From assembly GCF_917627385.1 (NCBI RefSeq), contig NZ_CAKJTL010000042.1:1-64000 (forward strand): a DNA stretch of 64,000 bases, given 5' to 3'. Below the pieces are notes generated by a model. That model was not told where the DNA came from. It worked only from the letters and a program-made list of their open reading frames with translations, and searched no databases. A program made the translations under genes and the position numbers. This stretch comes from Protofrankia sp. CiT1. GTDB lineage: Bacteria > Actinomycetota > Actinomycetes > Frankiales > Frankiaceae. Below, one piece after another: positions 10,083 to 60,304 of the stretch. The first letter of the stretch is position 1. The number at the start of each line of letters is the position of its first letter.

Positions 10083-11518
10083 CCGCCGTACACCGTCCGG
10101 CCCGGCAGCTCCTCCTTGGCGAGCCGCCGGTTGAGGTGCAGCCCTTCCATGGCGAGTTCCAGCCCAGCCGCGGCGAGCCCCGGCGATTCCGCGCCGTCGA
10201 TGCCGAGCCTGCCGAGGATCGCGGCGAACCCCGGCACCGGGCCCACTCGCCGCAGCAGCTCCGCTGCCGGGACGAGATCGCCGGTCTCGACCGGGCCGTC
10301 CACTTCGAAACGCCGTTGCAGACCGCTGAGGTCGGTTCCGGCGAGCCGGGCGCGAAAGGTCTCGGCGAGCGCCCGCCGCAGCAGGTGCGCAAGGATCTCA
10401 TCCTCCCGCCCCTCCTCCAGCTGGTCGAACTCGATCTTGCCGCGGACCGCCGGCACGATGGCCGAGAGGTCGACGACCCTCGCCGTCGGGACGCTCTCGC
10501 CGGCCAGCGCGGCCCGGCGCACCGCCGAGGCGGCCACGGTCTCGACGGCGGCCACCGACAGCCGGGCCGATACGCCGGAGCGGCGATCGACCTGTGGCGC
10601 GTCGCGCACCAGCCGGGTGAAGCGCGCGACCACCTCGAGCAGGTGTTCAGGCACAGTGGGAAGGCCCAGCGGTGACTCCCGCCAGGACAGCACGGCCTCC
10701 TGCCGGATCAGGGCCAGCTCGTCGCCCAGGCGAAGCGGGTAATGAGTGCGGACCTCGGCGCCGAACCGGTCCTTGAGCGGGGTGATGATCCGGCCCCGGT
10801 TGGTGTAGTCCTCGGGATTCGCCGAGGCGACGAGAAACAGGTCGAGCGGGAGCCGCAGGAGGTACCCCCGGACCTGGATGTCGCGTTCCTCCAGCACGTT
10901 CAGGAGCGAGACCTGGATGCGTTCGGCCAGATCGGGAAGCTCGTTCACGCTGAAGATGCCGCGGTTGGTGCGTGGTATCAGGCCGTAGTGGACGGTCTCC
11001 GGATCCCCCAGGGTACGGCCCTGCGCGACCTTGACCGGGTCGACGTCGCCGATCAGGTCACCGACGCTGGTGTCCGGTGTGGCCAGTTTCTCGCCGAACC
11101 GTTGGGAGCGGTGCCTCCAGGCGACCGGGGTGTCGTCGCCGAATTCGGTGATCAACAGCCGGCACCGGATGCACGCCGGAGCATAGGGATGATCGTTGAT
11201 TTCGCAACCAGCGACCACCGGTGTCCACTCGTCCAGCAGCCCCACCAGGGTTCGGATCAGGCGGGTCTTGCCCTGCCCGCGTTCCCCGAGGAAGACGATG
11301 TCGTGCCCGGCGAGCAGGGCGCGTTCGACCTGGGGGAGCACGGTGTCCTCGAAGCCGAGGATGCCGGGGAACCGGTTCTCACCATCCGCCATCCGGGCGA
11401 GGGTGTTGTTGCGCAGTTCGGTGCGTACGGACCGGTGCTGATGTCCTGAGCCGCGCAGGACGCCGAGCGTTGTCGGTTCAGGGGACTGCGGGGCCTGAGG
11501 CCCGGACAGATCGAGCAC
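10079..11518 (-). CDS. MoxR/ChlI-like AAA+ ATPase
   Basis: The Walker A motif is GERGQGKTR near residue 75. A Walker B-like strand reads GIFSVNELPDL, with Asn-Glu at the usual Asp-Glu position. Sensor 1 is LVASANPED, followed by a C-terminal lid. The motif HPYAPACIRC is a possible metal-binding or structural Cys pair. The reading frame stays open up to 11797, but that extension runs through a 56-base direct repeat whose period is not a multiple of three, so it is unlikely to be coding. GTG 11518 (VLDLSGPQAP) gives a 479-residue protein close to the usual size; a slightly later start is possible. It is coupled by an ATGA overlap to the VWA gene. Confidence 0.8.
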   Translation of the reverse strand: MLDLSGPQAPQSPEPTTLGVLRGSGHQHRSVRTELRNNTLARMADGENRFPGILGFEDTVLPQVERALLAGHDIVFLGERGQGKTRLIRTLVGLLDEWTPVVAGCEINDHPYAPACIRCRLLITEFGDDTPVAWRHRSQRFGEKLATPDTSVGDLIGDVDPVKVAQGRTLGDPETVHYGLIPRTNRGIFSVNELPDLAERIQVSLLNVLEERDIQVRGYLLRLPLDLFLVASANPEDYTNRGRIITPLKDRFGAEVRTHYPLRLGDELALIRQEAVLSWRESPLGLPTVPEHLLEVVARFTRLVRDAPQVDRRSGVSARLSVAAVETVAASAVRRAALAGESVPTARVVDLSAIVPAVRGKIEFDQLEEGREDEILAHLLRRALAETFRARLAGTDLSGLQRRFEVDGPVETGDLVPAAELLRRVGPVPGFAAILGRLGIDGAESPGLAAAGLELAMEGLHLNRRLAKEELPGRTVYGG

Positions 11519-11561
11519 TAGTTGACGGTACGTCCCCGCGCTCTCATCCGCAGGGAAGTCG

Positions 11562-11670
11562 CATGGACCGGAGGCGGCGCGATCGTGGTGGGTGCGTTGC
11601 CGGAGGTCTGGGGTGGGCATGGACCGGAGGCGGCGCGATCGTGGTGGGTGCGTTGCCGGAGGTCCGGGGA
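11562..11670. repeat. 56-bp direct repeat, about two copies
   Basis: The sequence starting catggaccggaggcggcgcg at 11562 recurs at 11618 with a single change over about 50 bases (ggtctgggg against ggtccgggg). It lies immediately upstream of the probable start of the AAA ATPase gene, in its leader or promoter region. The period of 56 bases shifts the reading frame, which argues against a coding role. Confidence 0.85.
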
Positions 11671-11837
11671 AGCCGGCGGTGGGCTGGTCCGGATGGCGGG
11701 CGGGGCTGGCTGCGTCCCGGGCCGTGCGATCATGGCGTTGGGCGGCGGGCGAGACACGATGGCAGAGACACCCAGGCCGCCAAGGACACGGTCGCACGGC
11801 CGGAAGCCCGGAGCGGACCAGCGGAGATACGTGGAGA

Positions 11838-12320
11838 TCAGCGGTGGTAAGGCGCCACCGAGACGATCGCGACCCGGGCCGGGCGGCCGTTGGGCAAGGT
11901 GTAGGTCACGGTGTCACCTGCCTTGTGGCCGGCAACCGCTCCACCGAGCGGTGACTGCGCCGAGTACACCTCAAGTGATGTGCTGTGATCCTCGCGGGAT
12001 CCGATCAGGAACTTCTCGGTGTCGTCGTCCCCGGGGAAGCGGACCTCGACTACAGTGCCCGGACCTGCCGCGCCGTTGAACTGCGGAGCTTCACCGACTC
12101 GCGCGTCACGCAGCAGATCGGTGAGCTGCCGGATGCGCGACTCCATCTTGCCCTGTTCTTCCTTGGCCGCGTGGTAGCCGCCGTTCTCCTTGAGGTCGCC
12201 CTCCTCGCGAGCAGCTTCGATCTTGTTGGCGATCTCGACACGACCGGTCCCGGTGAGGTGGTCGAGCTCCCCGCGGAGCCGGTCGTACGCCTCCTGGGTC
12301 AGCCACGTCTGCTGCGACAC
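11838..12320 (-). CDS. greA: transcription elongation factor GreA
   Basis: 160 residues, the normal GreA size. The N-terminal coiled coil reaches the RNA polymerase secondary channel and contains the tip signature EEGDLKENGGYHAAKEEQ with the acidic pair (Asp-Leu-Lys-Glu). The C-terminal FKBP-like domain ends with SPLGGAVAGHKAGDTVTY. GreA stimulates cleavage of backtracked transcripts. The start is GTG 12320, with GGAG about 10 bases upstream. It sits next to the DUF4307 gene and mca, the same order I recall in mycobacteria. Confidence 0.97.
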   Translation of the reverse strand: MSQQTWLTQEAYDRLRGELDHLTGTGRVEIANKIEAAREEGDLKENGGYHAAKEEQGKMESRIRQLTDLLRDARVGEAPQFNGAAGPGTVVEVRFPGDDDTEKFLIGSREDHSTSLEVYSAQSPLGGAVAGHKAGDTVTYTLPNGRPARVAIVSVAPYHR

Positions 12321-12694
12321 GCGTCACGCTCCTTACGTTGCCTGGGGCCGCCGGCCGCGCGAGCCAGAACCATGATCTCTGCTCTGCCGGTCGCCGGTAT
12401 CTCGATGGGCCGCACGCATATGACCGGATTATGACGAGTTCGGCTGTATCTCGTTCGGTCCATCGTTGGGTCGGAATTGTCTATTTGATGATAAAGATTG
12501 ATAGGAAGATGGAGCTTGTCAGAACTGGGGATGGTTGGGTCAGGGTTGGAAGTACAGGCGGGGGCAAACGCCCAGCCTAACAGTTGGCGATCCCAGCCGG
12601 GAAACTCCGCGTAGGCAAGCGTCATTGCTCGCCGTACGCGACGAATCAGGGCACGGCTGTGCCCTGATCGCGCGTCAGCATTCCCATGCGGTTG
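12321..12694. other. gene-free stretch upstream of greA
   Basis: The 374 bases between the DUF4307 stop and the greA start contain no supported gene. Positions about 12425-12545 are unusually A/T-rich for this window (for example tatttgatgataaagattga) and are the likely greA promoter region, read leftward. I do not see a confident -35/-10 pair. Confidence 0.4.
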
Positions 12695-13177
12695 TCAGCC
12701 GGCGCGGGTGATCTGACAGTCCTCGACCTCGACCACGTTCGCCTCCTGGGATGTGGTCACTGTGACCTTTACGGTCGTGACCCGCTGGCCGTTTGTAGCC
12801 GGACCGACGACGATGTCGGTGCGCCGGCCGACGATCTGGTTATCCCGGGAGCGTGCGCGGACAGTGCATTGTGCCACGGCGTTGGGTGACTTTTCCACAT
12901 CGAACGTCAGCTGCGCCTGTGTCCCACTGATCCGGAAGGCACGGGTGGCGTAGTCGAGCCGATCCGGCCGGCCCTGGACCCACCCGGCACCGACCGCCGC
13001 GAGCGTGACGACGAGGAGCGCCGCCAGCAGAAACCAGGGAGCCACTCTCATGCCACCAAGCCACGGGATATCGAGCCAGCGCAACGGGAAGCGAGGCGCG
13101 CGCGGCCCTCCCGGCTGGGGGGCGTGCGGCGGCTCGGTCGGCGAGGTCGCTGGAGGCATCGGGGACAATGGTGGCAT
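12695..13177 (-). CDS. DUF4307 family membrane protein
   Basis: A protein of about 160 residues with a Pro-rich N-terminus, a single membrane helix (MRVAPWFLLAALLVVTLAAVGAG split around residues 48-68) and a C-terminal extracytoplasmic domain (RISGTQAQLTFDVEKSP onward) ending with a Cys-containing strand (VEVEDCQI). This matches the actinobacterial DUF4307 family, a fixed neighbour of mca and greA. Function is unknown. The ATG at 13177 overlaps the mca ATG on the other strand; a second ATG at 13159 (MPPATSPTEPP) is an equally possible start. Confidence 0.8.
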   Translation of the reverse strand: MPPLSPMPPATSPTEPPHAPQPGGPRAPRFPLRWLDIPWLGGMRVAPWFLLAALLVVTLAAVGAGWVQGRPDRLDYATRAFRISGTQAQLTFDVEKSPNAVAQCTVRARSRDNQIVGRRTDIVVGPATNGQRVTTVKVTVTTSQEANVVEVEDCQITRAG

Positions 13178-38879: not shown

Positions 38880-39417
38880 CCTTTTCGTCGCGGTGAACAG
38901 AAATCGTCGACCAGGTCTGCCCATGGTGGGAGGACTGCTTTCTTTCCGGGTATTCCGTGGTTGTGGCCAGTAGCGGGGAAATGGCTTTTGCCGGTGTGGC
39001 CGGGCTGTCCGTGACGCCAATCCGGGCAACGCGAGTCCGGTCTTTTTCTGCATTCCAGCGGAGTGGGACGCGTTGCTGGCGGGTGCCCGGGATGACAGGT
39101 TCGACCGGACCTGATGCCTGCTGCCGTGCGCCCCTCCCGAGAGCTGTGGGAGCGCCCGCCCGACGCCCCGCGCCCGCCATTTCGATCAGGTAAGCACCCT
39201 CCTGGGCAGCACAAAAACGGCTGTGCGCCAGCCTGGCGGGCAGCGGGCCGCAGCGGCCGGATGGCGATCGTCGATCTTGAGTTGATTATCGTCATCACGA
39301 AACGTGTGTACTACGCGATGAATCAATTACGCTCCGTGTTAGTGTCGGTGGAGACAGGAAAGCCGGTTGTGCGGGTCGGCGCAGGGCTGTCCCGCCCGGA
39401 TGTTGGGTTGTCGCCAT
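38880..39417. other. gene-free stretch before the GH16 gene
   Basis: About 540 bases with no supported gene on either strand. The last 150 bases (39260-39410) include an A/T-rich run (ttgattatcgtcatcacgaa; gatgaatcaattacgctccg) that probably holds the promoter of the GH16 gene. Confidence 0.4.
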
Positions 39418-40272
39418 ATGCACACCAGACTCCGCATTCTTCTGCCACTGATCGCGGTTTCGGTGGTAGTCGCCAGCGCTGCCGTGGCGTGCACGGACGG
39501 CGCGCTGCTCGCTAGCGGCCCGGCGAGCAGCGCGCCGACGGGCCGCGGGCCGACGGTTGGTGACGGTTCGCGCTCTGCCTCGGCGGATGCCTGGGGCGCG
39601 CCGCTGTTCGTCGAGCGGTTCGACGGCAAGGACGTTGACCCCACAAACTGGTGGGTCTACGACAAGCCGAACGCGGAACCTTTCCCCAGATCGGTGGCTC
39701 GGGCCACGGTCGCGGGTGGCGCACTGCGCCTCACCGGGGGCTTCGACAGCGCTGGCCGGGATCTGGGCGCTGGGATCGCGAACAAGATGAACCTGCGGTA
39801 CGGCCGTTGGGAGGCCCGCGTCCGGGTGGAGCGCGGCGATGGCTACTCGGGGGTGATACTGCTGTGGCCGGCGTCGGGCAACTGGCCCACCGACGGTGAG
39901 ATCGACCTGCTGGAGGCAATTAACGGCAACCGCCAGGGCGCGTCGAGCTTCGTCCACAACGGTCCACGCAACCATGTTGAGTGGCACTATCTGCCCGGTG
40001 ATTACACTCAGTGGCAAACCATCGCGGTCGAGTGGCTGCCCCGATCGATCACCTTCTATCTCAACGGCGTGCCAGAGTGGACAGTGACCACGCCAGCCAT
40101 TCCGGGCGCGGTCAACCCGATCCCGTCGACGTCGGCGATGCACCTGGCGCTACAGCTGGACAAGGGCTGCACCGGCGCGATCCCGTGCCGGAACAGCCGG
40201 ACGCCGGCGACAGTCACCATGTATGTCGATCAGGTACGGATATGGACGGCTCCGCCGCGGCTCACCGGGTAG
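39418..40272 (+). CDS. secreted glycoside hydrolase family 16 enzyme
   Basis: 284 residues from ATG 39418 (MHTRLRILLPLIAVSVVVAS). The signal peptide ends near a Cys (AAVACTDG), so it may be lipid-anchored. After a Ser/Gly-rich linker, the GH16 jelly-roll contains the catalytic signature GEIDLLEAI (ExDxxE: nucleophile and acid/base Glu) near residue 177, preceded by GYSGVILLWPASGNWPTDGE. GH16 enzymes cut beta-1,3/1,4-glucans, laminarin, agar and related glycans. It could trim the organism's own polysaccharide or degrade plant or fungal glucan. It ends 11 bases inside the convergent hydroxylase-like gene. Confidence 0.92.
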   Translation: MHTRLRILLPLIAVSVVVASAAVACTDGALLASGPASSAPTGRGPTVGDGSRSASADAWGAPLFVERFDGKDVDPTNWWVYDKPNAEPFPRSVARATVAGGALRLTGGFDSAGRDLGAGIANKMNLRYGRWEARVRVERGDGYSGVILLWPASGNWPTDGEIDLLEAINGNRQGASSFVHNGPRNHVEWHYLPGDYTQWQTIAVEWLPRSITFYLNGVPEWTVTTPAIPGAVNPIPSTSAMHLALQLDKGCTGAIPCRNSRTPATVTMYVDQVRIWTAPPRLTG

Positions 40273-50110: not shown

Positions 50111-50155
50111 TTTTCTGGTGTCACACCTGGGTGTTTTCTGGTGTCACGCCCGGGT
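50111..50155. repeat. 22-bp direct repeat at the operon 3' end
   Basis: ttttctggtgtcacacctgg at 50111 recurs as ttttctggtgtcacgcccgg at 50133, a period of 22 bases. The second copy runs into the stop codon and last codons of the GT4 gene. Confidence 0.75.
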
Positions 50156-51415
50156 AGCGGTGGCCACCGCTACCCGGGATCGTCGGGCTGGGCCGCCGGG
50201 CCGCTGAGCCACCATGAGGGAACGCAGCAGTTCCGCCTGGCTGTCAGCCTGCTGGGTGAGGGTGTGCCGAGCGAGCACGTTCGCCCGGGCGGCTATGGAA
50301 ATCCGCTCGGCATAGCCCGGATTACCGAGCAGGTCGGTCAGCCGGCGGGTGAGATCGTCGACATCCCCCGCGCGGGCGAGCAGCCCGGTCACACCGTCCG
50401 TGACGATCTCTGGGATGCCGGCTGTCGGGAATGCGACCACCGGTGTTCCGCATGCCTGCGCTTCCAGAACGCTCAGCGGCAGGCCTTCCAGACTGGACGC
50501 GAGCACCAGCGCGTCGCATGCCCGCAGCAGACCGGCTATATCCGTGCGTGGGCCGAGGAAGCGTATCCGCACGCCCAGCAGGCTGGCGCCGAGCTCGCGT
50601 AGCGTCCTCGCGTGTGCCGGATCGAGGCTCGGCGCGCCCGCGACGGCGAGCTGTGCACGCGCGAACTGTCCGGGCAGTGAGGCCACCGCCCGGATCACGT
50701 TGTCCACGCCCTTGCGTGGGTCGAGCCGGGACAGCGCCAGTACCACGGGTGCGGACGGATCGGCCGCCAGCTGGGCGCGTACCGCGGGATCGGCGGGTCC
50801 CGGCCGCAGCGCGTCCGTGTCGACCCCGTTGCGGATCACCTGGGTACGGCGGGCTGCCGCGGGTGGCAATGACGCCGCCACCGCGTCGCTGACCGCCACC
50901 GACGCCTGCGCGCCGCGCACCGCCAGCCCCCGCAGCCGGCCGATCAGATCCGGTTCGTTCTCCTCATGCAGGTGCAGGACGACCGGCCGGTTCGTCAGCC
51001 GGCCCGCCAGCACGCACTGCAGATGCGACCAGTGGCTGTTCGCGTGTACTGCGTCCACGTCAAGGAGGCGGACGAGTGCCGCCGTGCGTCGGGCGAGCAT
51101 GGCGGTCCGTCCGAACTCCCGGACCGCGCCGACAGGGCTGAGCTGGCCATCCGGCGCGCGTATCCCGCGATCGTCGGGTGCGGGCAGCATGACGTGCAAC
51201 AGCCCGGCCGCCCGCCATGCCTCGGCCGTGGCGCTGCCGGCGGGCGCCGCGAGGATCTGTTCGACCCCACGGTCGCGGAGCAGCGGCGCGAGCCGCAGCA
51301 GATAGCGCTGTGCGCCCCATAGTCCCTCGCCCTGCTCGACAACCAACAACCGGCAGCGGGCTGGTTCCCGCGGCATCCTTGCCGATGTGTCCGTCACGGC
51401 CGTGGGCGTGCTCAC
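50144..51415 (-). CDS. glycosyltransferase family 4 (GT-B)
   Basis: 423 residues. The N-terminal Rossmann half has LLVVEQGEGLWGAQRYLLRL and the HANSHWSHL segment. The C-terminal nucleotide-sugar half has VVLALSRLDPRKGVDNVIRA, CDALVLASSLEGLPLSVLEA and QACGTPVVAFPTAGIPEIV, including the EGxPxxxxEA signature of GT4 enzymes. The GTG start overlaps the stop of the upstream gene (GTGA), so it is the last, translationally coupled gene of the polysaccharide operon. The sugar and acceptor are unknown. Confidence 0.93.
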   Translation of the reverse strand: MSTPTAVTDTSARMPREPARCRLLVVEQGEGLWGAQRYLLRLAPLLRDRGVEQILAAPAGSATAEAWRAAGLLHVMLPAPDDRGIRAPDGQLSPVGAVREFGRTAMLARRTAALVRLLDVDAVHANSHWSHLQCVLAGRLTNRPVVLHLHEENEPDLIGRLRGLAVRGAQASVAVSDAVAASLPPAAARRTQVIRNGVDTDALRPGPADPAVRAQLAADPSAPVVLALSRLDPRKGVDNVIRAVASLPGQFARAQLAVAGAPSLDPAHARTLRELGASLLGVRIRFLGPRTDIAGLLRACDALVLASSLEGLPLSVLEAQACGTPVVAFPTAGIPEIVTDGVTGLLARAGDVDDLTRRLTDLLGNPGYAERISIAARANVLARHTLTQQADSQAELLRSLMVAQRPGGPARRSRVAVATATRA

Positions 51416-54396
51416 CGGTCCGCTCCTGACGCCGCCGGCCCCGGCACCGCCTCTGACGTGGGCTCTGACGTGGGCTCCGACGTGGGCTCCGACGTGGGCT
51501 CCGACGTGGGCGCTGGCCCCGGTTCCGGCGATGTGTCTGTGCCGGCCGGCCCCGGGGAGGTCAGCAGATCGAGCGGGTCAGTGCACAGTAGGCCGATCGC
51601 GGCGGCCACGGCGGCCCGGGAGAAGCTGGCCGGATGGAAGGCCGCGGTGATCGACAGCGCGCCGCGCAGCTCGACGAACTTCACAGAGATGACGTCGCTG
51701 TCTCCGGGTGTGGACGCCGAGTACAGCTGAGGCGTGTCCGTACCGGGATCCGTGCCCGGCGGACCATCGACCCAGCCAAGCCGTTCGAAGCGCGGCACCC
51801 GGCCCAGATGGTTGAGCACCAGGCACGGGTGCGGCGGTGGATGGACGCCGGCCCGCGGTGGTGCTGCCGACGGCAGCCGCCGTCGGTAGCCGCGGGCGGC
51901 AATGAGACACAGCGTGGCCAGCGGCCGGCCAGAGGCAACCGTTTCGCGCAGTGCCCGGCTGATGGCGACCGGATCGACCGGATCGACCGGGAACATGCGC
52001 AGACCCACCGCGAAGTTGCCCGCGACGTTTGCGTCGGCTGGCAGGAAACGCCGGTTGTCAACCAGTGTGAACAGGCCCGCGCTGGCGGGTGTGCCCAGCC
52101 CGCAGCGGTCGAACGCGACCCGGGCCGCGGCGAACATGACGGCGGCGCTGGTCGAGCCGGGGGCGTGGGCATCGCGCCACTCCCGGATATCCGCCAGCGT
52201 CGACATGGGGCTGTGCCGTGCGACAACCGCCACCGCCGGCGCAGCCGGCCGGCTCGGAGCGGCCGTGGATGTTGCGGCTGTGGATGTCGTGGTTGTGGAT
52301 GTTGCGGCCGGTGCCCGCGCGGTGGATGCGGGCGGTGGGCCACCGGCTGCGCGCCTGGACCGCGGCGGTGCCGCCGGTGGTCCGCTCGGCCGCGGACCGC
52401 GCAGCATCGCCAGCAGGCGGCGCGGATCACGACCGCAGAAGTGGATGAGTGCGCGTAGCAGCGGCAGCACCGTCTCGTCCCTGGTCAGCGCTACCGGTGG
52501 GTCGCCGTCGAGGCCGGCGCGCAGCAGGTCGGGGAAGGCGTTCGTACTCAACCAGCCGTCGCCGAGACAGTGGGCTATCGACAATGCCGCGTACCGGCGT
52601 CCGACATAGAGCTGGAACGGCAGGGTCGGCACAGCGGATGCGTAGAGGCGTTCGATATGGCCGGTGAGGTCGTCCGGGTCGGGATCGTCCATCGGGACAA
52701 TCATCGTCACGCAGTGCCGGCGTATCTCGGCGGTCGGGGTCGGCCGCCACCGTGTCGAGCTCGGGTCGAGCGTACGGAACAGCCGGTGGCCGGGTTTCAT
52801 GGTGAACAGTTGTTCCGCGGCCACCCTGACCGCGGCCACGTCCGGCATGTCGGCCGGGCCGGCGAGCATGATGTGCCGCCGGCCTATCCAGGCACGGTCA
52901 CGACCGGCCATACGCATGAAAGCCCCTCTCTTTTCCGTCGTTATGGATTCCGCTGTTACGGACGCGGGCACAGCGACGTCGCTGTTGTGGCCACTGTTCA
53001 GACGCACTCCCAGCGCGGGGCGGCTGAGCATGATGGCGATCATCGCCGTGACGCTCTGCCCCGCAACCCAGGCGAGACCGACACCGGGCAGCCCAAGCGG
53101 CTGGGCGAACTGCCAGACACCTACGGTTATGATCATCGCGGGGATGGCCTGCAGGACGACGATCCGGCCGGCCTGCCGCCGTGCCCGCGCCGCACAGACG
53201 GCCAGTACCGTCACCGCGCGGGCCATACCGCCGAGCAGCAGCAGACGCAGCAGGGTGGTGGCCTGCTCGGCGTAGGTCGTCCCGAAGATTTTCAGGATCG
53301 CTGGAGCCGCGGCGATGCCGGCGGCACCGACCGCCGCGACGACCGGGAGAACCCGGCGCAGGACGGCCGTGTGCAGGGCGTCGACGTTGGCACCGGGCTG
53401 GGCACCCTCGACCGTCAGCGAGATCCCCATCCCGATGGTGATCAGATCGACCGATACCGTCAGCATCCAGGCGATGCCGAACGCGCCGCCGGCCGTCGAG
53501 CCCATCCTGACCACGACGAGTACCGGCAGGAAGGTCGTCGCGACCTGGGCGAAGAGCATTCCCACGGCGTCACCGGACAGGAAGCGAAACATCTCGGTAG
53601 TCCCGCCCAGCGTTTCGCCTGCCGCCCTGCCCCCCGTGGGGCGGGACGGCGGCAGCAGCCGCGTCCACAGCAGCCAGGAGACAGCCGCGATGAACACCAC
53701 CGGCGGCAGCGCCCATGAGCCGAAGAGACTGAGTGCGCCGCTCTGCCCGCCCGCGGCCAGCGCCGCGAGCACCGCCAGCTTGGTGGCGCTGTAGGCGACG
53801 TTTTCGATCGGCACCCAGAGCGCGGCGCGCAGGCCTGTCAACACGCTGTCCTGTAAGGAGAAGATCGACCAGAGCACGACCGCCAGCGTGAAGCCGATCG
53901 CGGTGCTGGGACGTCCCAGCACCGCGAGCGCTGGACTCATCCTGGGGATCACCAGTACGAACACCGTGCCCAGCAGCAGGCTCGCACCGGTCGCCACGCC
54001 GTATCCGATCAGTACCAGGCGCCGGGCGGATGCCCCGGCGCCTGGGAGGAACGTCGCGAACGCGCCGCCGAAGCTGAACTGGGCAAGCGTTGACAGTGCG
54101 GTGAGCGCCGCGACCAGGGCGGTGGCCGCGCCGACCGTGGCCGGGGTGGCGGTGCGCGCGGCGAGAATCCAGTACGCGCTTCCCAACAGGGAGGACACTC
54201 CACTGTTGACGACCAGGGCCAGCCCGTTGCGGTAGAGGACGCCGCGCCGGGCAGTGGCTTGCGCAGGCCGTGTTCCCGGCGCCGGATCCGCCAGGCGAGC
54301 GTTCCCGCGAGTCATCCTGTGCCGGCCTCGCTGTCGCTGATCATGGTAGGGGTATGGGTGGCGTCCGGAGTGCCCCGGCACGCCGGCGGTCATCAT
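51412..54396 (-). CDS. fusion: polysaccharide flippase-like (MATE/Wzx) membrane domain plus condensation-type acyltransferase domain
   Basis: 994 residues in one uninterrupted frame. Residues about 50-475 are a polytopic transporter of the oligosaccharide-flippase type (GVLYRNGLALVVNSGVSSLL onward, 12-14 helices). Residues about 494-970 resemble the PapA/condensation superfamily: SIAHCLGDGWLS near 607 is the HxxxDG motif with the catalytic His, and a C-terminal half contains TLVDNRRFLP. A Pro/Ala/Thr-rich insertion lies around 665-720 and the chain ends with TSEP repeats from a 12-bp DNA repeat. At the junction, ATG 52917 is preceded by a purine-rich gagagggg, so the acyltransferase could also be made separately. 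Both ends overlap neighbouring genes by 4 bases. Confidence 0.8.
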   Translation of the reverse strand: MMTAGVPGHSGRHPYPYHDQRQRGRHRMTRGNARLADPAPGTRPAQATARRGVLYRNGLALVVNSGVSSLLGSAYWILAARTATPATVGAATALVAALTALSTLAQFSFGGAFATFLPGAGASARRLVLIGYGVATGASLLLGTVFVLVIPRMSPALAVLGRPSTAIGFTLAVVLWSIFSLQDSVLTGLRAALWVPIENVAYSATKLAVLAALAAGGQSGALSLFGSWALPPVVFIAAVSWLLWTRLLPPSRPTGGRAAGETLGGTTEMFRFLSGDAVGMLFAQVATTFLPVLVVVRMGSTAGGAFGIAWMLTVSVDLITIGMGISLTVEGAQPGANVDALHTAVLRRVLPVVAAVGAAGIAAAPAILKIFGTTYAEQATTLLRLLLLGGMARAVTVLAVCAARARRQAGRIVVLQAIPAMIITVGVWQFAQPLGLPGVGLAWVAGQSVTAMIAIMLSRPALGVRLNSGHNSDVAVPASVTAESITTEKRGAFMRMAGRDRAWIGRRHIMLAGPADMPDVAAVRVAAEQLFTMKPGHRLFRTLDPSSTRWRPTPTAEIRRHCVTMIVPMDDPDPDDLTGHIERLYASAVPTLPFQLYVGRRYAALSIAHCLGDGWLSTNAFPDLLRAGLDGDPPVALTRDETVLPLLRALIHFCGRDPRRLLAMLRGPRPSGPPAAPPRSRRAAGGPPPASTARAPAATSTTTTSTAATSTAAPSRPAAPAVAVVARHSPMSTLADIREWRDAHAPGSTSAAVMFAAARVAFDRCGLGTPASAGLFTLVDNRRFLPADANVAGNFAVGLRMFPVDPVDPVAISRALRETVASGRPLATLCLIAARGYRRRLPSAAPPRAGVHPPPHPCLVLNHLGRVPRFERLGWVDGPPGTDPGTDTPQLYSASTPGDSDVISVKFVELRGALSITAAFHPASFSRAAVAAAIGLLCTDPLDLLTSPGPAGTDTSPEPGPAPTSEPTSEPTSEPTSEPTSEAVPGPAASGADR
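51455..51510. repeat. 12-bp tandem repeat inside the fusion gene
   Basis: gacgtgggctcc is repeated about four to five times head to tail, encoding Thr-Ser-Glu-Pro units at the extreme C-terminus of the flippase-acyltransferase protein. The number of units is likely variable between strains. Confidence 0.9.
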
Positions 54397-56198
54397 CGGC
54401 CTGCCTGGTAGGAGTAGATGCGGGCAGTCGGGCTGGTGAAGAAGGCCTGGAAGCGTGGCGAACGCGCGACCGCCTGCTCCAGGGAGCCCAGCGCTCCCGG
54501 TGGGGCGAGCCCGAAGACCTCGGCGTAGACCTCCTGCGAGGTTGTGAACGCGAGATAACCGTGCGTGGAGTACTGCCGCAGCACCGCGACGACGCCATCA
54601 AGGTCAGCCGCGCCCAGCTGGCGGTGGCGGAACCCGGCCGTGTGCAGCAGGTTGGGGTCGTCGTCACTGCTCGGACCCCGAAATTCCGGGTACCTGGGGC
54701 CGTACCGGAGCGGGAAGTCGGGGCCGGCGAGAAGAAGCACCGACCCGGCTTCGGCGTGGGCGTCGAAGTAGTCGGCGGCCCGGACGGTGTCCGGAGTCAT
54801 GATGTTGATTTCTTCCTGTCCGGTGAACGCGGGCAGGAACATGGCGACCAGAGCGCCGGTGACGGCGCTGACCCGCGGCGCCTGGCGCAGGCGCCACACG
54901 CCGCCGGTGGGCTCCAGGGCGAGGGCGCCGAGAACAGCCGCGAACGGCAGGGCGAACAGGACGACCCGAAGCGACGCCTCGCCGCCGTAGTTCTGAGCGA
55001 ACACGATCCCGACGGGAACCACCGCGAGCAGCAGCGGGATCCCGGCCACGCGGTTACCCCGGCGCAGATCGCGCCAGGCGCCGATGACGGCCAGCAGCCC
55101 CACGGAAACCGTCAGCGCGTACCCGGCGCGCGCGTTGAAGATTTTCCCGGGCAGCGGGGAGAACTCGTGAACGTGCGCGTTCGTCGCGTTGGCCACCGGG
55201 TTCGTCCCGGAAAGCAGGCCGAAGGTGTGCTGGACGTAGCCGAGGTTCGGCACCAGCCAGGCCAGCGTGAGCCCGGCCAGTACAGCGGTGAGCCACCGCG
55301 GCCGGACGTATCCCGCGGCGCTCAGCGCGCCCATCCCGGCGACGAGCAGATAGGGGGTGAGCTGGTGACTGACGACCACCGCCGCCTGCAGCACACATAT
55401 GATCGTTATAGCTGCCCGCCGTGCCGGGCCCGGGGGCGTCCCGGCCAGGTGTGATGATCGCGGCCCGGTCAGGAACCGCAGCGCGACCAGATACAGACCG
55501 AGCCCCATCGTGAGCCCGAATGCCTGCGGCGCGAAATAACTTTGTCCCACCCAGTTGGTGATGACGAAGAGGAAGGCGGCCGTGGCGGCGGTACGGGCAC
55601 GACCGGTCAGCGTCCGTGCGGTCGCGGCGACTATTCCTGCCTGGACAAGCGGAAAGAAAACCTCGGCCCAGGCCGCGTACGTCACCGGATTCCGCTGTCC
55701 GGCGAGCTGGCCGAACAGCGCGGCAACCGCAAAGAATCCCGGCCACCGATGGTAGATGTCGATCCCGGGGTCGATACTGCCGTGCACATCGATGTACCGG
55801 ACGACGCCGATGTGTTTGTACACCCAGGGGTAGTGCGGAACGTCCGTGCACAGTGGCACCGTCCCGTAGAGGATGACCACGGTTGCCGTGAGGAAACCGG
55901 CGAGCAGCCACGGGCTCGGCCGCCGCTGGCAGAGCGCGGCCGCGTACCCGACGACCACCAGGGCGAGTCCGGCGTACCAGCGCACAGGCAGGGCTGGTGG
56001 CAGCCCGTAGTCACCGAGGGAGTCCACCCGGATGTCGCCCAGTGACGTGGCCCATAGGAGGACGCCGGCAATGCCCACCGCCGTGGTCGGTGCGAGCCTG
56101 CCCAGCGCACGCACCGCTGCCGAGGCCTGGGCGGCCGCTGCCGTTGCCGGCGGGACCGCCAGCCAGCTCAACCGATGGATCGGCGGGCTGGCGGTCAT
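54393..56198 (-). CDS. multi-spanning membrane protein, probable GT-C-type glycosyltransferase
   Basis: 601 residues from ATG 56198, chosen because it overlaps the upstream stop in an ATGA arrangement; the frame extends to 56462 but that part is repeat-coded. At least 12 hydrophobic helices. The first external loop has YPWVYKHIGVVRYIDVHGSI followed by DPGIDIYHRWPGFF, an acidic loop of the kind used by GT-C enzymes that take polyprenyl-phosphate sugars. The C-terminal 150 residues are soluble (RAADYFDAHAEAGSVLLLAG). It probably extends or polymerises the glycan outside the membrane. The exact family is not recognised. Confidence 0.75.
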   Translation of the reverse strand: MTASPPIHRLSWLAVPPATAAAAQASAAVRALGRLAPTTAVGIAGVLLWATSLGDIRVDSLGDYGLPPALPVRWYAGLALVVVGYAAALCQRRPSPWLLAGFLTATVVILYGTVPLCTDVPHYPWVYKHIGVVRYIDVHGSIDPGIDIYHRWPGFFAVAALFGQLAGQRNPVTYAAWAEVFFPLVQAGIVAATARTLTGRARTAATAAFLFVITNWVGQSYFAPQAFGLTMGLGLYLVALRFLTGPRSSHLAGTPPGPARRAAITIICVLQAAVVVSHQLTPYLLVAGMGALSAAGYVRPRWLTAVLAGLTLAWLVPNLGYVQHTFGLLSGTNPVANATNAHVHEFSPLPGKIFNARAGYALTVSVGLLAVIGAWRDLRRGNRVAGIPLLLAVVPVGIVFAQNYGGEASLRVVLFALPFAAVLGALALEPTGGVWRLRQAPRVSAVTGALVAMFLPAFTGQEEINIMTPDTVRAADYFDAHAEAGSVLLLAGPDFPLRYGPRYPEFRGPSSDDDPNLLHTAGFRHRQLGAADLDGVVAVLRQYSTHGYLAFTTSQEVYAEVFGLAPPGALGSLEQAVARSPRFQAFFTSPTARIYSYQAGR

Positions 56199-56644
56199 CC
56201 CTGGCGCCGTTCGTGCTCGTGGCGCTGTCCGTGCTCCCTGCGCTGTCCGTGCTCGTGGTGCCGTTCGTGCTCCCGGCGCCGATCCGGGGCCGTCGCGGAG
56301 AGCTCGCCGAGCGCCCGCCGAAGATCCCAGGCGAGCACCCCACCGGAGGCCAGCCCAAGGCAGAGCAGCAGCGCCGTGGGGTTCCACCAGCCCACCTCGA
56401 CGGTGACCACCGCCAGCAGGGTCAGCATCGCGAGGCTCACGCTCACCGTGACCGCGAGCCACGTCAACGCGTCGTCAAGGCGCAGGGTGGTCAGCGCCGC
56501 CGCGCCTGGCAGCAGCGCCGCCGCCAGCACAGCCAGCACGGCCCGCACCGGTGAGTGCGTGCCGCTGAGGGCCATCAGCAGGGTCAGCGCGGCAAGTGCC
56601 AGCAGGGCGCAGTCCACCGCGCATCGACGCCGTGGTTCGATCAT
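56195..56644 (-). CDS. small three-to-four-helix membrane protein of the polysaccharide operon
   Basis: 149 residues from ATG 56644, with GAGGGCGG upstream. Hydrophobic helices cover residues about 10-105 (ALLALAALTLLMALSG; AVLAVLAAALLPGAAAL; VTVSVSLAMLTLLAVVTVEV; ALLLCLGLASGGVLAWDL). The C-terminal tail is a His/Arg/Glu repeat (HERHHEHGQRREHGQRHEHE) encoded by short DNA repeats. The stop overlaps the ATG of the GT-C-like gene. Function unknown; an accessory subunit is likely from the coupling. Confidence 0.7.
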   Translation of the reverse strand: MIEPRRRCAVDCALLALAALTLLMALSGTHSPVRAVLAVLAAALLPGAAALTTLRLDDALTWLAVTVSVSLAMLTLLAVVTVEVGWWNPTALLLCLGLASGGVLAWDLRRALGELSATAPDRRREHERHHEHGQRREHGQRHEHERRQG

Positions 56645-56849: not shown

Positions 56850-59444
56850 TCACCGCCATGCTGGCGCTGGCGGCCGGTCGTGAGCCGCTTGGTGGCGGGA
56901 CCGCAGATAACAGGCTGGACCCGCGGCCATACCGGCGAGTTCGCGCAACCAGAGCCGACGCATGGGCAACGTGGCCGGTCCGGCCAGCCGGTGACCAGCG
57001 GCCAGCGGCCCGCGCGTGCCGCCAGCGGACGCGGTGACTGCGCGCCCGGTCCGTCGCCGGGTCGTCCGCAGATGGCCAATCCCGGCGGGAACCGCGACGA
57101 GCAGGCCCCGGGCCGTGGCTGGGTCCAGCAGGTATTTGCAGAGGAACGAGGTCAGCCCGGTGCCGTAGCCGAAAAGCTGCCGGCGCAGCGCGTCCAGCTC
57201 AGCCCGGTGACTGTGCCAGACGAGTGCCGCCGGCTCATAGGCCAGGGCGTGCCCGGCAAGCAGCACGCGGACGAAGACGTCGAGGTCCTCACCGCCAGCT
57301 GACGCGGTGCCGGCGCCGAGCGCCTCGTCGAAGCCACCGAGGGCGAGCAGGACATCGCGGCGGAACGCCATGTTTGCCCCAGTGCCGAACGCCCCCGCGC
57401 TGTAGGGGTACAGCGGGCTCGGCCGCCGGGACCGATCAAGGTCGAACAGCGCCGGCCGGCAGTTCGTCGCCCATGACACCCGGGCGTCGAAGTAACGTTC
57501 CGCCGGGCTTGCCAGGGTGGCCGCGGCCACGAGCCCAGTGACGCAGGCGACATCGGGCCGGCGCTCGAAGCCGCGTACCAGGCCGCGGATCCAGTCGGCG
57601 TCCACGGTCACGTCGTCGTCGGTGAAGGCGACGATCGTGCTGCTTGCCGCTGTCAGGCCCGCGTTGCGTGCCCGGGAGAGCCCAGGCCGTGGCTCCAGCA
57701 CGTACCGGAACCGGGGGTCGCCGGCGGCCTGGGCGTCGAACACGCTTCGGGTCGCCGGGTCGGTCGGGGCGTTGTCGACGATGATGACGTCGAGCCAGGG
57801 CCAGTCGAGCGCGCGTAACGAGACCAGGCTGGCGGCGAGCTGGGCCGGCCGGTCACGGGTGCAGACCACAACGCTCACCGCGGGGGCCGAGAGCAGCCGG
57901 CGGCATGCGTGACCGGCGGCCAGCGGGCCTGCCGGTGCCGGGCACGCCGGTGGCTCCGGGTCCGGGTCCGGACCCGGCAGCTGGTCGAGTCCGTCGATGC
58001 CCAGGTGAGCGCGGATGGCCTCGCCAAGGTCGCGGCTGGCCATGGCCCGCAGCGTCAGGTCGTCGAGGACGTCCGTGTCGAGATCGACGGACAGGAAGCC
58101 GAGCGGTGTGCCGTGCAGGCGGATCAGAAGCCGGGCTTCGCGGTACGGCGTGGCGGCGGTGTCGAGCAGCTCAGCGGGAAGAGCCATCGGTTCGGTGAGT
58201 TCCACCTCCCCGCACCAGATCCGTGCTGTCGTGGCTGCCGGTGCGGTTCGGGCCGCCTGACGGCCTCGCCGGCCACTGACCGCATGCGCGAGGTGAGCGG
58301 CCGGCCCCCGGGTGAGCCCGGTCACCGTCGCGGCGGGCAGCGACGATGGACAGCCGCGCGGCTGATGGCGCGGCTCATCAGAACGGCGGGCCGGCTCATC
58401 AGGAAGGCGGGCTGGGCTGCCAGGACGCCGCCAGCGCAACCACCGGCCATGGACATATCCGGCTGTGGTGATCCCCAGGCCCGCCACGGTGACGCCCGCA
58501 CGCGGCCAGCGCCGCGGTGTGGCCAGGTCGCGGCACAGCGCCCGGGGGAGCACGCGGCGCACGTAGTCCTTTTCGCTGGCGAGTGCCGCATCGCGGCCGA
58601 CGCTGTGGGCGACCGCGGCTTTGGAAAGGCCTTCGGCATAGCAACGGGCCCGGAAGTACCGCCAGGTCGTACGCTCCCGGGTGACCCGATGGCTTACCCG
58701 CGCGAGCGGTTGGTAAAGCATGATCATCGTTGGGTCATGGGCGCGCAGCCGGATGGCGAGCTCGGTTTCCTCGCAGCCCAGCGGCCGGGACCCGAGCCGG
58801 CCGAGTCCGTCGGTGAAACCGCCCACCTGGTCGAAGACCATCCGCCGGAACGACATGCCGGCACCGATTGGGTTCCGGACCGGTGCGCTGGCAGTGGGAA
58901 GTCCCTGGTAGCTACAGCCGACCACCCAGTCGAATTCCGGTGGGAACCAAGGCGGGCGGCTCGACGGCCAGCGCGGCTCGGCCAGCCCGCCGACACCGGC
59001 GACGGCCGGGTCCGCATACGGAGCCAGGAGGTTTGCCAGCCATGATGGTTCAGCCTCGGCATCGTCGTCGAGAAAGGCGATCACATCGCCGGTGGCGGTC
59101 GCGATACCGGTGTTACGGGCTCCGGACAGACCGTTGCGACCGCTGTTGAGCACGACCTGGACGCCGGACAGACCGGCAGCCGCGCGCTGGTGGAGCCTGG
59201 GATTGTGGTCGATGACCACGATGACTTCGTGGGGGGGAACGGTCTGGGCCGAAAGACTTGTCACGGCCCGCTCCAGATCGGCCCACCGCTCTTCGGTGTA
59301 GGCACAGATGACGACGGACGCGCACGCCGCGGGCCAGCTGGCGTCGTCCGGTTCCTCGTCGCGCCCGCGGTCTGGCCAACTGGCCGGGCCGCGGGCCGCC
59401 GGAACTGGCGCCGTTTGCGTCCGCCGTCCGCTGACGGCCGTCAT
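56850..59444 (-). CDS. double GT2 glycosyltransferase (two GT-A domains in one chain)
   Basis: 864 residues from ATG 59444, which overlaps the upstream stop (ATGA). Domain 1 starts SVVICAYTEERWADLERAVT and has VIAFLDDDAEAEPSW (DxD) and a C-terminal CEETELAIRLRA. Domain 2 starts near residue 520 with VSVVVCTRDRPAQLAASLVS and has IVAFTDDDVTVDADWIRGL and GGEDLDVFVRVLLAGH (ED motif). The linker carries a beta-rich segment (ARLLIRLHGTPLGFLSVDLD) commonly found ahead of actinobacterial GT2 domains. It could add two successive sugars to one carrier-linked glycan. A 205-base gap separates it from the next gene of the operon. Confidence 0.88.
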   Translation of the reverse strand: MTAVSGRRTQTAPVPAARGPASWPDRGRDEEPDDASWPAACASVVICAYTEERWADLERAVTSLSAQTVPPHEVIVVIDHNPRLHQRAAAGLSGVQVVLNSGRNGLSGARNTGIATATGDVIAFLDDDAEAEPSWLANLLAPYADPAVAGVGGLAEPRWPSSRPPWFPPEFDWVVGCSYQGLPTASAPVRNPIGAGMSFRRMVFDQVGGFTDGLGRLGSRPLGCEETELAIRLRAHDPTMIMLYQPLARVSHRVTRERTTWRYFRARCYAEGLSKAAVAHSVGRDAALASEKDYVRRVLPRALCRDLATPRRWPRAGVTVAGLGITTAGYVHGRWLRWRRPGSPARLPDEPARRSDEPRHQPRGCPSSLPAATVTGLTRGPAAHLAHAVSGRRGRQAARTAPAATTARIWCGEVELTEPMALPAELLDTAATPYREARLLIRLHGTPLGFLSVDLDTDVLDDLTLRAMASRDLGEAIRAHLGIDGLDQLPGPDPDPEPPACPAPAGPLAAGHACRRLLSAPAVSVVVCTRDRPAQLAASLVSLRALDWPWLDVIIVDNAPTDPATRSVFDAQAAGDPRFRYVLEPRPGLSRARNAGLTAASSTIVAFTDDDVTVDADWIRGLVRGFERRPDVACVTGLVAAATLASPAERYFDARVSWATNCRPALFDLDRSRRPSPLYPYSAGAFGTGANMAFRRDVLLALGGFDEALGAGTASAGGEDLDVFVRVLLAGHALAYEPAALVWHSHRAELDALRRQLFGYGTGLTSFLCKYLLDPATARGLLVAVPAGIGHLRTTRRRTGRAVTASAGGTRGPLAAGHRLAGPATLPMRRLWLRELAGMAAGPACYLRSRHQAAHDRPPAPAWR

Positions 59445-60304
59445 GCGTAGGTCGCCGAGGCGCTGCCGGCCCGGTCCGGCTGCTCTGGGGCGTCTGCCTG
59501 GCGGGGAAGGGCGGTGGCCGGCGGAGCGGCGGATGCCGCGGAGTGGCACCCGGCCGCTTGACCGATCAGCGGGTCGCGTCGGTGCAGCCGTTCGGACAGG
59601 ATCGTGCGCAGTACCCGCAGGCCGTCGCTGCTGGCTCGCAGGTTTGATTCGCCGTGCACGCGGGGGCGTTCGAAGCTGCCGACCTCGGTGATGCGCAGGC
59701 CGGCCGCGGCGACTCGCAGCATGATCAAAGTCTCGATCTCGAAGCCGTCACCCCACTGGCGAGTTCCGTTGTGCTGGCCGGGTGTGAGGCCCAGCGCCGC
59801 GAGACACGTGCGGGAGAAGGCGTTGTAGCCATAACAGAGATCGGTGAAACGCTGGCCGAACAACCGATTGGCCAGGAAGCACAGAGCGCGGTTTCCCAGC
59901 TGCCGGGCGCGGGTGATGTCGGCGCTTCCGCCGCCGTGGGCGAAACGTGTTCCCTTGGCGAAGTCCGCGCCATTGCGAAGAGCGTCGAGGAAGGCAGGGA
60001 TCTCGCTGGGGTCCGCCGAGCCATCGGCGTCCAGCATGACGATGAAATCGCCGGTGGAAGCGGCGAAGCCACAGGCGAGAGCGTTCCCTTTACCACGTCT
60101 GGTTTGGCGCACGACGATTGTGTCGGGACGGATTTCGCAGGCGACACGGATGGTGTCGTCAGTGGACCGGCCGTCCACCAGGATAATTTCCGCGTCGGGC
60201 GGTAGCCGCCGGAAGACGCCAGGTATGTTCTTCGCCTCATTGAGCGTTGGAATGACGATGCTAACCGAGAGGGGGGCCACTGGACGCCGCGACGTCTCGA
60301 ACAA
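59441..60304 (-). CDS. GT2 glycosyltransferase, polyprenyl-phosphate sugar synthase-like
   Basis: 287 residues. The start is TTG 60304, fixed by GGAGG seven to eleven bases upstream. GT-A motifs: VSIVIPTLNEAKNIPGVFRR, EIILVDGRSTDDTIRVA, and DFIVMLDADGSADPSEIPAF (DAD). The block FTDLCYGYNAFSRTCLAALG and GFEIETLIMLRVAAAGLRIT is typical of dolichol/polyprenyl-phosphate mannose or glucose synthase relatives. It is the first gene of the leftward polysaccharide operon and is coupled to the double GT2 gene. No C-terminal membrane helices are seen. Confidence 0.9.
   Translation of the reverse strand: MFETSRRPVAPLSVSIVIPTLNEAKNIPGVFRRLPPDAEIILVDGRSTDDTIRVACEIRPDTIVVRQTRRGKGNALACGFAASTGDFIVMLDADGSADPSEIPAFLDALRNGADFAKGTRFAHGGGSADITRARQLGNRALCFLANRLFGQRFTDLCYGYNAFSRTCLAALGLTPGQHNGTRQWGDGFEIETLIMLRVAAAGLRITEVGSFERPRVHGESNLRASSDGLRVLRTILSERLHRRDPLIGQAAGCHSAASAAPPATALPRQADAPEQPDRAGSASATYA

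Follow-up and report, generated by a model that had tools for sequence, protein, structure and literature searches.

A Wzx-type flippase and a putative condensation-superfamily acyltransferase in one open reading frame of a Frankiaceae glycan operon: a candidate in-frame join of neighbouring genes

In MprF, a cytosolic aminoacyl-transferring domain and a flippase domain are part of one chain, and the lipid is modified before it is flipped (PMC8131360, PMC11980842). PapA3 acylates trehalose in the cytosol, and translocation follows in the formation of mycobacterial diacyltrehalose/acyltrehaloses (PMC4183827). The mycobacterial MOP flippase MurJ (MviN) carries a C-terminal intracellular pseudokinase, which has been proposed to act as a regulator (PMC6180346). 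Our study deals with an open reading frame of Protofrankia sp. CiT1 in which a flippase of the MOP type is followed by a putative acyltransferase. It lies in a stretch of 64,000 nucleotides, which was analysed as a whole and is called the window in the following. The Frankiaceae, to which this strain belongs, include many plant symbionts.

The frame is located at positions 51412-54396 of the minus strand, and all features of the frame and its operon described below lie on that strand. It comprises 994 codons from an ATG start to one stop without interruption, and encodes a Wzx-like flippase and a probable condensation-superfamily acyltransferase (994 aa). The end of the upstream ORF (54393) overlaps its start (54396) by four bases, ATGA, and its own end (51412) overlaps the start of a GT4 gene (51415) by four bases, GTGA. 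A first-pass annotation made from the sequence alone had reported one frame of 994 residues with four-base overlaps on both sides and the motif HCLGDG in its soluble domain; re-reading of the frame reproduced all of this, including every coordinate given. A second frame is also free of stops across the junction, by chance at the G+C content of the window. Because of this, the open frame is weak evidence of a fusion, and its openness was rejected as an argument in itself. That both halves exceed chance is indicated by homology, since residues 41-470 match flippases over the full length and residues 494-945 match an acyltransferase family from 20 genomes. The idea that the C-terminal half might be a chance frame was likewise rejected in view of its 22 homologues.

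The flippase part (residues 41-467, 52996..54276) gave no match to Pfam (including PF01943 and its kin), NCBIfam or PDB sequences; PF01943 was matched by two of its homologues, L066 (7e-6) and L088 (7e-7). In an AlphaFold model of the full-length protein, pLDDT values of 90-98 were obtained over most of residues 60-465. The input for this model consisted of 42 sequences, all of them flippases, since MAFFT could not place the standalone acyltransferases on the fused protein amid many flippases; the acyltransferase half remained unmodelled. Foldseek searches against the PDB returned members of the MOP superfamily (MATE, WzxE, MurJ), with WzxE (9g9p) as the closest solved polysaccharide flippase (TM-score 0.74, normalised by target). 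Judged by this predicted fold, the N-terminal half is a flippase of the Wzx/MOP type, in agreement with its earlier designation as a polysaccharide flippase. The model shows 12 transmembrane helices, read by eye from its high-confidence part; the earlier estimate of about 13 was right as to a multi-helix membrane part and has to be corrected as to the count. Wzx proteins have both the N- and the C-terminus inside. Twelve helices, together with the larger number of Lys/Arg residues in predicted inner than in outer loops (7 vs 3), would place both ends, and hence the acyltransferase half, in the cytosol. The cytosolic position of this half, for which structure prediction had been proposed as a check, is thus supported by the modelled flippase. 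An alignment scan of genome contigs detected 80 further full-length homologous loci, most of them actinobacterial and some from rhizobia and Chloroflexi. In the flippase tree, the window protein falls within a fully supported Frankiaceae clade shared with the flippases from three genomes of another genus (L135, L141, L142).

The acyltransferase domain (residues 494-945, 51562..52917) represents an unnamed family of about 430 aa, found here in Frankiaceae. Searches with single proteins and with the alignment yielded neither a convincing Pfam or NCBIfam model nor a PDB sequence match for any of the 22 members. PF00668 and related profiles did not match the window acyltransferase, a search of the genome with PF00668 did not return the window locus, and tblastn of the domain against plasmids gave no match. 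In profile comparisons with hhalign, the family aligned with NRPS condensation domains from sister genomes (92.9%, E 3.8e-7, 281 columns) and with PapA-like proteins, one of them encoded in the genome of the window strain (95.6%, E 1.2e-8, 359 columns), whereas the unrelated controls GT4, fumarase and XseA reached probabilities of 0.1-0.2%. On the basis of these profiles we accept that the C-terminal half belongs to the condensation/PapA superfamily. At this level the earlier assignment as a PapA/condensation-type acyltransferase holds; the narrower name "PapA" would describe a resemblance only. The catalytic-type motif HCLGDG (residues 609-614, 52555..52572) contains the H and D of HxxxD, both invariant in the alignment of 22 family members. 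The final G of HxxxDG is A or missing in some of them; in the sister species, e.g., the motif reads HPLGDA with an A in place of the G after the catalytic D. The full HHxxxDG motif of the NRPS condensation type is absent, the first His being replaced in all 22 members. The D and R as well as the G and N of a second motif, DNRRFLP...AGNF (residues 780-795, 52012..52059), are also invariant in the 22 sequences and were aligned by hhalign with NxR...GN of the PapA-like proteins. Further features are an Ala/Pro/Thr-rich insertion within the domain (52192..52404), which is missing or far shorter in most homologues, and a 12-base tandem repeat in 5 copies (51451..51511) encoding a C-terminal (TSEP)n tail. 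An AlphaFold model of the acyltransferase half, built from two sequences only, had a pLDDT of 34.

The operon starts with a gene for a GT2 resembling AglJ/dolichyl-phosphate-hexose transferases (59441..60304), assigned by domain searches and by the gene order in relatives. It is followed by a gene for a protein with two GT2 domains (56850..59549; PF00535, 2e-49, in two stretches), which has the same position in L135, L141 and L142. The two domains are AglG-like and MftF-like, and the second is encoded by a single-domain gene in L085, making this another fusion in the operon. The next gene (54393..56462), which overlaps the fused frame by the four bases mentioned above, encodes a multi-membrane-spanning protein without a Pfam match. 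It is a conserved neighbour in the relatives, and we infer that it may be GT-C/polymerase-like. The downstream gene (50144..51415) was identified as a GT4 glycosyltransferase by domain search. The GT2, GT2-GT2 and GT4 genes found with the flippase, as well as the order in relatives, support the glycan-operon context proposed before. The same genome possesses a paralogous cluster (L105, on the 14.7 kb contig C105) with an AglJ-like GT2, two GT2, a membrane protein and a standalone flippase of 43% identity. An ATP-grasp gene lies next to this cluster, in which no acyltransferase was found.

The acyltransferase family was detected in 20 of 35 Frankiaceae genomes, covering 5 of 7 genera. In all 19 other genomes carrying it, it is encoded by a separate gene, and none of the 80 homologous flippase loci is fused to this acyltransferase. 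Thus the search for further proteins with both domains, which the first-pass annotation had suggested, was carried out and gave no second case among the 20 carriers or the 80 loci, and the fusion is not borne out as an established protein type. Two separate genes in homologues, which it had named together with a sequencing error as evidence against a real fusion, are what these 19 genomes contain. We count the restriction of the fusion to the window genome against a functional fusion. In L135, L141 and L142, the genes for the AglJ-like GT2, the GT2-GT2 protein, the membrane protein, the flippase and the acyltransferase follow each other in the same order as in the window, and the stop of the flippase overlaps the start of the acyltransferase as ATGA or GTGA. 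From these separate, overlapping genes it follows that the fusion would have arisen where two neighbours, coupled in translation, became joined in frame. The coupling in relatives suggests that the two proteins already cooperated as separate chains.

Including these three loci, the acyltransferase gene lies beside flippase, GT2 and membrane-protein genes in five cases (L085, L134, L135, L141, L142). In Frankia canadensis (L085) and a relative (L134), the membrane-protein gene is followed by the acyltransferase gene and then by a GH16 gene. A secreted GH16-like protein is encoded near the window operon, too (39367-40272). These genes might point to a linked enzyme, either a glycan hydrolase or a transglycosylase. 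Four species of the genus of the window strain have a standalone acyltransferase gene next to ispH and xseA, two genes that flank the window operon as well. There it is clearly separate and paired with a flippase of a different subfamily, which counts against the explanation we prefer below. The four genomes in which the genes are adjacent or fused are not united in a single clade of the acyltransferase tree; their adjacency may or may not be of common descent, and we count this topology against the same explanation. One genome (G027) contains two divergently oriented acyltransferase copies about 3 kb apart (L147:6825-8219 and 11498-12949), outside recognised flippase operons.

Our preferred explanation is a glycan-export operon, conserved in Frankiaceae, with glycosyltransferases, a flippase and a soluble cytosolic acyltransferase, the latter two being proteins which are coupled in relatives and here joined in frame, acylation preceding flipping; we give it an even chance. 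The acyltransferase would esterify a hydroxyl group of a lipid-linked glycan or glycolipid precursor at the cytosolic face, with acyl-CoA or an acyl-carrier as donor, and the flippase would then carry the acylated unit outward. The fusion might tether the acyltransferase at the entrance of the flippase and fix the ratio and location of the two partners. An internal start probably gives rise to free acyltransferase as well, so that the cell may hold both forms. Acylation before flipping is plausible by analogy to PapA3 and MprF; substrate, donor and reaction order are inferred, as are the production and function of the long form. The more specific version, in which one bifunctional Wzx-flippase/condensation-acyltransferase acylates and then flips a lipid-linked glycan, accompanied by free acyltransferase from the internal start, appears rather doubtful to us.

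The junction bears on these explanations directly. The linker (residues 468-493, 52918..52995) contains what was formerly the leader of the acyltransferase gene. Up to about codon 465 the coding bias is strong. It weakens over codons 476-493, where GC3 is 0.61 compared to 0.87 in the flippase and the coding score is about zero, and is back after codon 500. Such a drop would be expected for recent read-through of a non-coding leader and was counted against our preferred explanation. The internal ATG at 52917 is directly preceded by the purine-rich, Shine-Dalgarno-like leader GGAAAAGAGAGGGGCTTTC (52915..52937, including the start codon) and is the probable original acyltransferase start. Among 54 internal ATG, GTG and TTG codons it shows the strongest pairing with the anti-Shine-Dalgarno tail of 16S rRNA (-8.5 kcal/mol), and it aligns with the N-termini of the standalone homologues. 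Both this start with its purine-rich leader and the proposal that the acyltransferase may also be made alone had been put forward in the first-pass annotation, and these data lend support to both. With a flippase tail, an old leader including its Shine-Dalgarno sequence and the acyltransferase following each other, the junction resembles a recent in-frame join. A natural mutation and a base error of the assembly would leave an identical pattern, and a single base change at the junction could create or abolish the fusion.

The strongest alternative holds that there is no functional fusion at all: either the junction contains a base error, or a stop codon was lost recently, the acyltransferase is made mainly from 52917 and the long tail is neutral. 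We regard this as a realistic possibility. It is in line with the separate genes in the 19 other genomes, the nearest arrangement being a stop/start overlap, with the intact Shine-Dalgarno sequence and start of the acyltransferase, and with the non-coding-like codon use over codons 476-493. Stops are present in frame +1 near 53042, 53000, 52958 and 52943. Moreover, in-frame run-ons arise easily at this G+C content and in these genomes; in Frankia tisae (L082:2-1735), e.g., the flippase continues in frame into the next gene, which encodes a small membrane protein and stands by itself in L085; this is a second run-on in operons of this type. However, there is no direct sign of an error: one frame runs without a stop, its coding bias is normal until the junction is reached, and the flippase and the acyltransferase of the window are each intact. 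Taken together, the comparison of genomes points to a lineage-specific join of neighbouring genes, the reality of which in the cell is uncertain.

A different target of the acyltransferase, such as a free glycolipid, an intermediate derived from a nucleotide sugar or a specialised metabolite, with the fusion as a mere membrane anchor, is in our view unlikely. Enzymes of the condensation superfamily use many acceptors, and the more divergent family members (L144, L145, L147, L148) are located outside recognisable flippase operons, but in closer relatives the gene is found in or beside glycan operons, near glycosyltransferase, flippase or GH16 genes. That the C-terminal domain is catalytically inactive and regulates flipping, as proposed for the pseudokinase region of mycobacterial MurJ, is very improbable: such a regulatory cytosolic domain on a MOP flippase has a precedent (PMC6180346) and the G after the catalytic D is replaced in the HPLGDA motif of the sister species, but the H and D of HxxxD are retained in 22 of 22 members.

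C-terminal additions are not restricted to the window protein. Flippases of the same family with an extension of about 350-420 residues were found at L003:8614-11154, L005:8755-11280, L007:8569-11262, L015:7881-10325, L066:3664-6000, L071:7816-11235 and in L079. The extensions of L003, L015, L066 and L079 contain an APH-type kinase domain (PF01636), and its HGDFxPGN...DWE motifs recur in those of L005 and L007. The extended flippases fall into two separate clades of the tree, a rhizobial and an Ilumatobacter-like one. The rhizobial long flippases were considered as examples of the window architecture and rejected, as their C-terminus is an APH domain. In an Acidimicrobiaceae MAG (L074:8564-11620, 1018 aa), the flippase frame runs into two alpha/beta-hydrolase-like regions. 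Sequence comparison thus indicates that this flippase family gained cytosolic enzyme tails several times, namely APH kinases twice, an alpha/beta hydrolase, and here an acyltransferase. Repeated enzyme partners on one flippase family would predict where sugar modification falls relative to flipping. If the fusion of the window is real, it would provide direct covalent evidence that the acylation of a bacterial glycan is coupled to its flipping and would point to the likely timing, with cytosolic acylation prior to export. Apart from the fusion, the analysis brings to light an unnamed acyltransferase family linked to glycan-export operons of Frankiaceae.

Among the described systems, WzxE shares with the flippase half the 12-helix MOP fold (TM-score as given above) and the location in a glycosyltransferase operon, but the identity is about 16% and WzxE lacks the C-terminal enzyme domain of about 500 residues. 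The acyltransferase half resembles PapA/condensation acyltransferases, e.g. PapA3, in its superfamily assignment by profile comparison and in the HxxxD motif; it differs from them in that its family was matched by no Pfam or NCBIfam model and no PDB sequence and has only the second His of HHxxxDG. In the Rhizobiaceae and Ilumatobacter fusions, proteins of about 780-1139 aa, a member of the same flippase family also bears a cytosolic enzyme at its C-terminus, but their partner is a phosphotransferase (PF01636) and they belong to separate clades of the flippase tree. In mycobacterial MurJ (MviN), a MOP flippase likewise continues into a cytosolic domain at the C-terminus, yet this protein has 14 helices, is a peptidoglycan flippase and carries a regulatory pseudokinase instead of an acyltransferase. 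The combination in the window had been regarded as unprecedented. Its logic is less so, as MprF already joins a transferase and a flippase (PMC8131360), a membrane flippase and a cytosolic transferase being present on one polypeptide in both cases. In contrast to MprF, the window flippase shows the MOP/Wzx fold, and its transferase would belong to the condensation superfamily and not be tRNA-dependent. With neither the MprF fold nor a tRNA-dependent synthase, the fused protein would at most work like MprF without being a member of that family.
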